Made by a program: the position numbers and the translations under genes. 64,000 nt of DNA, from assembly GCF_900113175.1 (NCBI RefSeq), contig NZ_FOOK01000010.1:1-64000 (forward strand). Reading direction: 5' to 3'. The DNA comes from Planifilum fulgidum. GTDB taxonomy: Bacteria; Bacillota; Bacilli; Thermoactinomycetales; DSM-44946. The notes beneath the pieces are model-generated. The model worked only from the letters and a program-made list of their open reading frames with translations, did no database searches and was not told the DNA's origin. Shown here piece after piece: positions 1,683 to 20,536 of this stretch (its first letter is position 1; each line of letters opens with the position of its first letter).

Positions 1683-1718
1683 AGGGACAAAAGATGTCCA
1701 ACCTTGACCAAAAATGTC
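1683..1718 (+). promoter_or_regulatory. CggR-like tandem operator of the glucokinase-yvcK operon
   Basis: The 36 bp read AGGGAC-N6-TGTC-N4-CTTGAC-N6-TGTC. This is the architecture described for the Bacillus subtilis CggR operator (CGGGAC-N6-TGTC twice, 20-bp period). The first half-site is near perfect and the second has two mismatches. It overlaps the -35 of the promoter at 1704-1732, so binding should block initiation. The same architecture occurs before cggR at 18396-18431 in this window. Confidence 0.55.
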
Positions 1719-1732
1719 CCGTGACGTATAAA
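1704..1732 (+). promoter_or_regulatory. Sigma-A promoter of the glcK-rapZ-yvcK-whiA-crh operon
   Basis: TTGACC, a 17-bp spacer and TATAAA. The predicted transcript starts near 1739. This excludes the upstream in-frame ATG at 1694 and supports the start at 1769. Confidence 0.65.
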
Positions 1733-2767: not shown

Positions 2768-3643
2768 GTGGACGCGGGGAAAGGCATCAATCTGGTCGTG
2801 ATCACGGGCATGTCGGGCGCGGGCAAAACCGTGGCCGTGCAGAGCCTGGAGGATCTCGGGTTTTTTTGCATCGACAACCTGCCGCCCATTCTGCTGCCCA
2901 AGTTTGTGGAGCTTTTGGAGCAGTCGAAGGGAAAGCTGCGGAAAGCCGCGTTGGTGATCGATCTCAGGGGCCGGGAATTTTTTTCTTCCCTGTTTGAGTC
3001 GCTGGACACCTTGGAGAAGCACCACGGGATTCATTACCAGATCCTTTTCCTGGAAGCCAGCGACCAGGTCCTGGTGCGGCGGTACAAGGAGACCCGCCGC
3101 CGCCATCCTTTGTCCCGGGACGGAACGCCCCTGGACGGGATCTTGCAGGAACGGAAATTGCTCGAGGAGATCAAAGGACGGGCCCATCACATCATCGACA
3201 CCAGCCATCTGAAACCGAACCAGCTGAAGGAAAAACTGGCCGCCCGGTTCGGCCAGTCGGGACGGGAGAGGATGACGGTCACGTTCCTTTCCTTCGGATT
3301 CAAATACGGGGTTCCCATCGACGTGGATCTGGTCTTCGACGTCCGTTTTCTTCCCAATCCCCACTATGTGAAATCCCTTCGCCCGCACACCGGAAAGGAT
3401 TCGGATGTGTACGAGTACGTGATGAAATGGGAACAAACCAAGCAATTCATCGACAAGTTGACGGATCTTTTGTCTTTCCTCCTTCCCCATTATCATCGGG
3501 AAGGAAAAACCCAGCTGGTGGTGGGGATCGGGTGCACGGGGGGAAAACACCGTTCGGTGGCCATCGCGGAGCATCTTTCCCGGGTTTTCAGCGAAAGGGA
3601 AAGCTGTCGGGTCGCGCATCGGGACATCGATAAGGATGCGTAA
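2768..3643 (+). CDS. rapZ: RNase adapter protein RapZ (YvcJ family)
   Basis: A P-loop protein of 291 residues. The Walker A GMSGAGKT lies at residues 14-21, with IDNLPP soon after. The conserved C-terminal domain includes [10 protein letters not shown] and [16 protein letters not shown], the signature of the family. In Escherichia coli RapZ guides RNase E to the glmS-activating sRNA GlmZ. In Bacillota the homologue YvcJ binds nucleotides and its target is less clear, so RNA-adapter activity is inference here. It starts with GTG behind a GGAGGAAGAAGGGGG leader and sits just upstream of yvcK, the standard Bacillota order. Confidence 0.92.
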
Positions 3644-3657
3644 ATGAGGTGTCGAGG

Positions 3658-4659
3658 ATGAAAGAATACCCGAGGGGGGAATCCCGCCGTCCTCATATCG
3701 TGGCGATCGGCGGAGGGACGGGGCTGCCGGTTTTGTTGCGCGGGCTGAAGAAGGCCCCCGTCGATATCACCGCCGTCGTGACGGTGGCGGACGATGGGGG
3801 AAGTTCCGGTCGCCTCCGCAACGATATGCAAATGCCCCCTCCCGGTGATGTGCGCAATGTGCTCATCGCTCTGGCGGACACGGAACCCCTGTTGGAGCAG
3901 GTCCTGCAACACCGGTTCACCAACGGGGACGGGCTGGCGGGTCACGCGCTGGGCAACCTGATGTTGGCCGCACTGAAGGAGATAACCGGCGATTTCACCC
4001 AGGCCATCGAGGAGATGAGCCGCGTGCTGGCCGTCCGGGGACAGGTTTTGCCGGCCAGTTCCCAGGACGTGGTCCTCCTGGCCGAGATGACCGACGGCAC
4101 CATCATCCGCGGCGAATCGCAGATCCCCAAATCGGGGAAAAAAATCCGTCGCGTCTTTCTTCATCCGCCCCAACCCGATCCCCACGACGACGCCCTCGAC
4201 GCCATCGCCGGGGCGGACGCCATCGTTATCGGCCCGGGAAGCCTTTACACCAGCATTTTGCCCAATCTGCTGGTGAGGGGGATGGCCGAGGCGATACGGG
4301 CATCTTCGGCCGTCAAGCTCTACATCTGCAACGTGATGACCCAACCGGGGGAAACCGACGGTTTCACCGCCTCGGATCACGTCCGGGCGATCTACGATCA
4401 CGTCGGGGACCGCTTTTTTGACACGGTGATCGTCAACAATGCGGTGCCGCCGCCGTCGATCCGGCGAAAATACGCCGCGAAAGGGGCGGAAACCGTTCTG
4501 CCGGATGTCGATCGCCTCCAGAAATTGGGATGTCACGTCATCGCCGACAATCTTTTGCTGTACGGTCGCGATTCCTACCTGCGTCACGATGCGGACCGCC
4601 TTTGCCGCCACATCCTCGAACAGGTGCGGGACAGGAAACGCCGCCGCTGCAGCGGATAG
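3658..4659 (+). CDS. yvcK: YvcK/CofD-like gluconeogenesis factor
   Basis: The N-terminal VAIGGGTGLPVLLRGLKK and the later VTVADDGGSSGRLR are the nucleotide-sugar-binding signatures of the YvcK family, related to CofD. In B. subtilis YvcK is needed for cell shape and growth on gluconeogenic carbon sources and binds UDP-GlcNAc-type ligands. No enzymatic product is established. The ATG at 3658 is preferred because GAGGTG lies six bases upstream. A GTG at 3649 is in frame but has no good ribosome site. It follows rapZ closely and is followed by whiA 15 bp later, so co-expression is likely. Confidence 0.92.
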   Translation: MKEYPRGESRRPHIVAIGGGTGLPVLLRGLKKAPVDITAVVTVADDGGSSGRLRNDMQMPPPGDVRNVLIALADTEPLLEQVLQHRFTNGDGLAGHALGNLMLAALKEITGDFTQAIEEMSRVLAVRGQVLPASSQDVVLLAEMTDGTIIRGESQIPKSGKKIRRVFLHPPQPDPHDDALDAIAGADAIVIGPGSLYTSILPNLLVRGMAEAIRASSAVKLYICNVMTQPGETDGFTASDHVRAIYDHVGDRFFDTVIVNNAVPPPSIRRKYAAKGAETVLPDVDRLQKLGCHVIADNLLLYGRDSYLRHDADRLCRHILEQVRDRKRRRCSG

Positions 4660-4674: not shown

Positions 4675-5625
4675 ATGTCTTCCTTTGCCGCCCAAACGAA
4701 AAACGAGCTGGCCCGGGTTGAAGCCCCCCCTTGCTGCCAGAGGGCGGAGCTTTCCGCCCTGGTGCGGATCAACGGAACGATTTCGCTTCACCGCCGCTCC
4801 ATCGTGTTGGATGTGTCCACGGAAAACGCCGCCATCGCCCGTCACATCTTCACCCTGATCAAGCGATTGTACGGAGTTCACCCGGAGGTTTTCGTCCGCA
4901 AAAAGGTTCGCCTGAAGAAGAACAATGTGTACTTCAACCGCCTCACCGCGGATGCCAAGCGGGTGCTGCTCGATCTGAAGATCCTGCAGGAGGGGGAAAG
5001 GCTGACGCAGACCGAGGGCATCGACCCCGAACTGATCAAGTCCCTCTGCTGCCGCCGCTCCTATCTGCGCGGGGCGTTCATGGCCAGCGGATCCGTGAAC
5101 AATCCCGACAGCGGCTCCTATCACCTGGAGATTGTCACCACCTATCAGGATCACGCCGAGGCCATCTGCCGGCTGATGAACCGGTTTCACCTTCACGCCA
5201 AGGTGATCGAGCGGAAGAAGGGATACGTGATCTATGTCAAGGAAGGGGACAAGATCGGCGAATTTCTCAGCATCATCGGGGCGCATCAATCCCTTCTCCA
5301 ATTTGAAGACGTCCGGATCATGAAGGACATGCGCAATTCGGTCAACCGGCTCGTCAACTGCGAAACGGCCAACCTGAACAAGACGATTCAGGCGGCGATG
5401 CGCCAGATTGAGAACATCCGATTGATCGACCGGGAGCTGGGTCTGGACCAACTGCCCGCCCGGTTGCGGGAGATCGCCGAGGTGCGGCTGAAGCATCCCG
5501 AGATCACCCTGACGGAATTGGGACAGATGTTGCCCAGCGGAAAAGTGAGCAAATCGGCGGTCAATCACCGGCTGCGGAAGCTGGACGAAATCGCCAGGCA
5601 GCTGCGCCGCCACACGGAAGGTTAA
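4675..5625 (+). CDS. whiA: DNA-binding protein WhiA
   Basis: 316 residues, the normal size. The N-terminal half resembles a degenerate LAGLIDADG homing-endonuclease fold, and [18 protein letters not shown] is the family-typical segment. The C-terminal helix-turn-helix is in the region of [25 protein letters not shown]. WhiA is a sporulation regulator in Streptomyces and influences cell division and chromosome segregation in Bacillus. AGAGGTG precedes the ATG. It stands in the conserved rapZ-yvcK-whiA-crh order, so assignment is secure. Confidence 0.94.
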
Positions 5626-5691: not shown

Positions 5692-5952
5692 ATGGTGGAA
5701 AAGCGCGTTGTCGTCAAATTGCAAACCGGTCTTCATGCCCGTCCGGCCGCCCTGTTCGTCCAGGAGGCGAACAAGTACGCTTCGGAAATTTTCGTCCAAA
5801 AGGGAGACAAAAAGGTGAATGCCAAGAGCATCATGGGGATCATGAGCCTCGCCGTGGCGAAGGGAACGGAAATCGTCATTTCCGCCGACGGCCCCGACGC
5901 CGAAAAAGCGGTTGAAGCACTCGCGGAAATGGTCAACAAGGAAGAGGTCTAA
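5692..5952 (+). CDS. crh: Crh-like HPr protein that keeps His-15
   Basis: An 86-residue HPr-fold protein. Position in the yvcK operon and the segments RPAALFVQEANKY and KKVNAKSIMGIMSLAV make it Crh-like. Ser-46, the HPr kinase target that allows CcpA binding, is present in KSIMG. Unlike B. subtilis Crh, which has Gln at position 15, this protein reads TGLHARPAA with His-15, the residue phosphorylated by enzyme I in true HPr. It might serve in PTS transfer, in carbon repression, or both. AAAGAGGAGG precedes the ATG at 5692. A TTG at 5662 is in frame but upstream of that ribosome site. Confidence 0.85.
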   Translation: MVEKRVVVKLQTGLHARPAALFVQEANKYASEIFVQKGDKKVNAKSIMGIMSLAVAKGTEIVISADGPDAEKAVEALAEMVNKEEV

Positions 5953-18329: not shown

Positions 18330-18358
18330 TTGTCAGCTCTGGGGCCATCGGCTACAAT
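18330..18358 (+). promoter_or_regulatory. Promoter of the cggR-gapA operon
   Basis: TTGTCA, a 17-bp spacer and TACAAT. The predicted start is near 18365, upstream of the CggR operator at 18396, so a bound repressor would act as a roadblock as in B. subtilis. Confidence 0.75.
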
Positions 18359-18395: not shown

Positions 18396-18431
18396 TGGGA
18401 CGTATTTTGTTATACAGGGACATGAATTGTC
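18396..18431 (+). promoter_or_regulatory. CggR operator
   Basis: TGGGAC-N6-TGTT-N4-AGGGAC-N6-TGTC, the 36-bp tandem architecture known for B. subtilis CggR. The second half-site is the better match and also forms the palindrome GGGACATGAATTGTCCC. It lies 19 bp before the cggR start codon. Confidence 0.8.
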
Positions 18432-18449
18432 CCGATATGAAAAGGTGAG

Positions 18450-20536
<2,087 letters not shown>

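Follow-up and report, generated by a model that had tools for sequence, protein, structure and literature searches.

The glycolytic repressor CggR is a standard example of a regulator with a single target and also serves as a flux sensor. In Bacillus subtilis it recognises a 45-bp operator in the gapA leader and comes off this operator with fructose-1,6-bisphosphate (FBP) and DHAP (PMC11229326). The literature surveyed shows it with the gapA operon only, as a preliminary description of the present locus had held, and in PMC2941500 Doan and Aymerich (2003) are cited for a "single DNA target sequence" of CggR. A stretch of 64,000 nucleotides from Planifilum fulgidum (contig NZ_FOOK01000010.1; hereafter the window) raises the question of whether CggR has a second operator in this organism, located in front of the glucokinase gene glcK. 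On sequence grounds the glcK site is probably a true CggR operator in addition to that of cggR-gapA, and the genome would have about five in all (cggR-gapA, glcK, pfkA-pyk, gapB, and ppc); repression of glcK would be relieved by FBP and DHAP. If true, a regulon that includes both upper-glycolysis sugar kinases as well as triose enzymes would make CggR a global flux regulator. All coordinates refer to the forward strand.

The cggR-gapA locus of the window provides the point of comparison. Direct reading places the cggR promoter (TTGTCA, 17 bp, TACAAT) at 18330–18358, a layout that recurs in the cggR leaders of the order Thermoactinomycetales, and the operator at 18396–18433, roughly +32 to +69 relative to the predicted start. 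The operator reads TGGGAC, GTATTT, TGTT (18408–18411), ATAC, AGGGAC (18416–18421), ATGAAT, TGTC (18428–18431) and CC. It is followed by cggR (18450–19478), encoding a SorC-family repressor with a CggR-type DNA-binding domain (PF21715 and PF04198), and by the glyceraldehyde-3-phosphate dehydrogenase gene gapA (19520–20536; NCBIfam TIGR01534, 468 bits). The encoded CggR shares 52% identity with its B. subtilis counterpart along the full length; the alignment also conserves the effector-domain stretches GGTT and ARGG, which presumably take part in phosphate binding. Arginines R37, R38, R49, and R52, which contact guanines in CggR structures (PMC11229326), are all conserved in the window's protein. 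The layout and register of the B. subtilis operator are those of the window's sites (PMC11229326) and, as with that operator (+32 to +77), the cggR site lies downstream of the start in a roadblock-like position. The resemblance to the B. subtilis system thus covers tandem half-sites, register, the four base-contacting arginines and the placement at cggR-gapA, whereas the additional predicted operators at glcK, pfkA-pyk, gapB, and ppc set the present system apart. The Caldicellulosiruptor CggR regulon (PMC8579813) is alike in its outer inverted repeat GGGAC-(27)-GTCCC.

The gene glcK (1769–2725) encodes a ROK-family glucokinase (TIGR00744, 306 bits). The roughly 1.4 kb upstream of it contains no convincing gene, and before that, positions 1–232 resemble the part of a transposase gene that encodes the C terminus. 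The predicted operator of glcK (1683–1720) consists of the half-sites GGGACAAAAGATGTCC (left) and TTGACCAAAAATGTCCC (right), which read AGGGAC (1683–1688), AAAAGA, TGTC (1695–1698), CAAC, CTTGAC (1703–1708), CAAAAA, TGTC (1715–1718) and CC. Taking as the hallmark of a CggR operator tandem palindromic half-sites GGGAC-N7-GTCC with the GGGAC boxes 15 or 14 bp apart, the glcK site belongs to this class: its left half is a perfect GGGAC-N7-GTCC, its right half is TTGAC-N7-GTCC with two of the five box letters off, and the spacings are exactly 15 and 7. The preliminary description had pointed out a shared 36-bp layout at 1683–1718 and 18396–18431; layout and register do agree, but the TGTC assigned to the left half of the cggR site is TGTT.

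The claimed overlap of the site with the −35 box of a good promoter is borne out, since TTGACC (1704–1709) falls within the right half-site and stands 17 bp before a −10 box TATAAA (1727–1732). This TTGAC/17/TATA layout is kept in 12 of 13 pattern-matching leaders, the remaining one having 18 bp. A simple promoter scan did not return the glcK promoter among its matches because TATAAA lacks the final T demanded by the scan. The operator occupies about −56 to −19 relative to the predicted start; it therefore covers the −35 box and spacer rather than lying downstream of the start as the roadblock-type operator of B. subtilis gapA does, and direct exclusion of RNA polymerase is likely for this reason. 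At low FBP and DHAP a CggR tetramer would occupy both half-sites and keep RNA polymerase from the glcK promoter; during active glycolysis FBP and DHAP would release CggR and glucokinase would be made.

A further reading is that the operator is real and also controls the genes behind glcK, namely rapZ (2768–3643), yvcK (3649–4659), whiA (4675–5625), and an HPr-family gene (5692–5952), all of which match their NCBIfam models above cutoff. The genes are co-directional and the glcK-rapZ gap is 42 bp, so that read-through is likely and may add to their transcription. However, a TATAAT-like box stands directly 3' of the glcK stop codon in most genomes of the order, even in those without the CggR site; in the window it is part of a candidate internal promoter with TTGCTC, 18 bp and TATAAT (2730–2735), at 2706–2735. 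As this box is conserved also where the site is absent, the four genes probably have their own promoter, and any effect of CggR on them is probably partial; their control by the operator is a possibility to which we give the lesser weight. The last gene had been named crh, the one gene name that did not stand when the names were checked. Its product matches the Crh-type model PRK13782 above cutoff, but it reads TGLHARPAA, with a histidine at the active position, and keeps the serine in AKSIMG. B. subtilis Crh has Gln at position 15 and no His there, and the lack of a phosphorylatable His that marks Crh is not seen in the present protein. Given that the active-site His and Ser are both kept, the protein may be a phosphorylation substrate of PTS enzyme I. 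The proposed link of FBP to YvcK and Crh through the operator is weak in view of the separate TATAAT-like box and of this histidine.

The operator itself could be a chance product, that is, a sigma-A promoter in which TTGACC and the adjoining bases look like an operator by coincidence. TTGACC is a promoter element in its own right and accounts for part of the right half-site, and most relatives are without the site. Yet the exact core pattern occurs only twice in the 3.38-Mb genome, at glcK and in the cggR-gapA leader, and a reversed control pattern gave no match in the whole genome. With up to two mismatches the core pattern gave four matches within the window (the two sites on both strands) vs. 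0.19 expected in shuffles. A search of 399 Bacilli genomes yielded 33 distinct exact sites, of which 22 are at cggR-gapA, five at pfkA, one at pyk, two at glcK (the second of these in another family) and one between rho and a CoA-disulfide-reductase-like gene, so that clearly unrelated places hold just two.

A sequence model was also built on 34 operators taken from cggR leaders of the order only, the gapB, glcK, pfkA-pyk, and ppc sites being left out, and the genes flanking its matches were identified from their loci and Pfam. In the window's genome it ranked cggR first (39.7 bits, E 1.5e-9, this operator being a member of the training set), followed by gapB (20.9 bits), glcK (16.1), pfkA-pyk (14.8) and ppc (12.0). 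The E-values for glcK (0.039), pfkA (0.10), and ppc (0.81) are rough and modest singly, and counts over related genomes are not independent; the weight of the ranking is that all top places are central-carbon genes.

Named relatives matched through pfkA put the window in the order Thermoactinomycetales. Comparison of the glcK leaders of the order adds evidence on both sides. The site is present in this species (G000), in a congener (G002) and in a member of another family (G017); a genome of a third family (G006) has the left palindrome alone, and decayed copies occur in two more (G010 and G013). It is absent from the congener G001 and from most of the order, so that conservation in close relatives is partial. 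These absences, the model E-value of glcK and a core-base change in the G002 site (TGTC to GGTC) are the weak points of the proposed operator. Against coincidence, the left half lies exactly 15 bp before TTGACC in all three families, and this identical register argues for a common origin of the site with repeated loss. A chance resemblance is accordingly very improbable, and the proposal that a CggR-type operator overlies the glcK promoter holds up on the match to the organism's own cggR operator, the constant spacing to the −35 box and the company of central-carbon genes among the best matches of the cggR-trained model.

It might also be supposed that the sites at glcK, pfkA, gapB, and ppc serve another regulator with the same motif, such as a paralogue. 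Several of these are three-quarter operators somewhat unlike the cggR site, which would suit such a protein. However, there is a single CggR homologue per genome where CggR is present (E below 1e-40), the leader of cggR itself has this very motif, and the pfkA element follows the presence of CggR. This element, TGTC-N5-GGGAC-N7-GTCC or close to it, stands mostly directly after the accA terminator (about 200 bp upstream in G003 and G004) and is found in 36 of the 37 CggR-bearing genomes of Thermoactinomycetales, the exception being G005; the operator of the cggR leader itself was likewise found in 36 of the 37. None of the four genomes of the order without CggR (G024, G028, and G029, of one genus, and G038) has the pfkA element. 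The association has a hypergeometric probability of 4.9e-5, a figure behind which stand only two independent losses of CggR. The scores for pfkA are 13.7 to 26.9 vs. below 7, a wide gap, although with 60 shuffles per leader a p below 0.016 is not attainable. We therefore regard a regulator other than CggR as very improbable. Least credible is a role of the palindromes as leader hairpins in RNA, for which the GTCCC and GGGAC arms of the pfkA leader could pair: the glcK site is rejected as a hairpin because it lies, like that of gapB, upstream of the predicted transcript start, and the spacer letters of the CggR operator vary while its arms and 20-bp register are kept.

The predicted operators at pfkA-pyk, gapB, and ppc had no place in the preliminary description. 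The promoter of pfkA could not be located in its leader. Within the order, only the window's genus, with its three species, has the gapB and ppc elements. In the ppc (PEP carboxylase) leader the element consists of GGGAC-N7-GTCC with an extra GTCC arm, and it occurs in all three species and nowhere else in the order (L287, L296, and L297). The gapB site is placed just upstream of the −35 box and adjoins the box TGTGACATACT, which we take to be CcpN-like; this box lies between the −35 and −10 of gapB, about 60 to 80 bases before the gene, and is conserved in the order (L111–L140). Thus, two carbon regulators may act on gapB in this genus, and the position of its operator makes activation by CggR possible.

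Beyond the order, the model scan of 161 genomes showed pfkA leader matches in further families (including G181, G105, G151, and G088), and in a set of 80 named pfkA leaders those of Thermoactinomycetales and Tepidibacillus have the element; inspection of the same leaders by eye did not reveal it in Bacillus and relatives. Weak model matches at ypeB (G003) and a trmB-like gene (G017), and inside a dacA-like gene (G034), a flagellar hook gene (G090), and tpiA (G158), were judged from their context to be chance. Taken by distribution, pfkA would be an old and widespread CggR target that the relatives of B. subtilis seem to lack, whereas the glcK, gapB, and ppc sites appear to be patchy or recent additions. 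That many Bacilli families keep the pfkA element points to B. subtilis as the reduced case. Searches of published papers gave no earlier report tying CggR to pfkA or glucokinase, although an earlier listing of pfkA in RegPrecise is possible.

With CggR as the regulator of these sites, much of glycolysis in this organism, and not a single operon, is probably under the control of one sensor protein. The circuit would contain positive feedback, as pfkA, whose product makes the inducer FBP, has the same kind of site; placing PfkA under the repressor predicts a switch-like glycolysis. In Escherichia coli, Cra (FruR) acts in a similar way, as a repressor that responds to a fructose phosphate and controls glycolytic genes jointly. 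Cra and CggR have both been treated as flux-linked regulators (PMC12965863), but they are not homologous, their DNA motifs differ, their effectors are probably different, and activation of a gluconeogenic gene by CggR is putative here. A Cra-like dual regulator, in which CggR at low FBP would repress glcK, pfkA-pyk, and gapA and activate gluconeogenic gapB, with PfkA closing the positive feedback loop, is a tentative extension that we consider rather unlikely as a whole.

Some variations in the arrangement of the sites were observed in other Bacilli. In one genome (G158, L339) an exact CggR-type operator stands at pyk, apart from the one at pfkA, and in another (G180, L342 and L343) cggR and gapA occur at separate places with a CggR-type operator at each. 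The exact pattern next to rho (G217, L360, 1501–1534) may be due to chance or may mark a redox-linked target.
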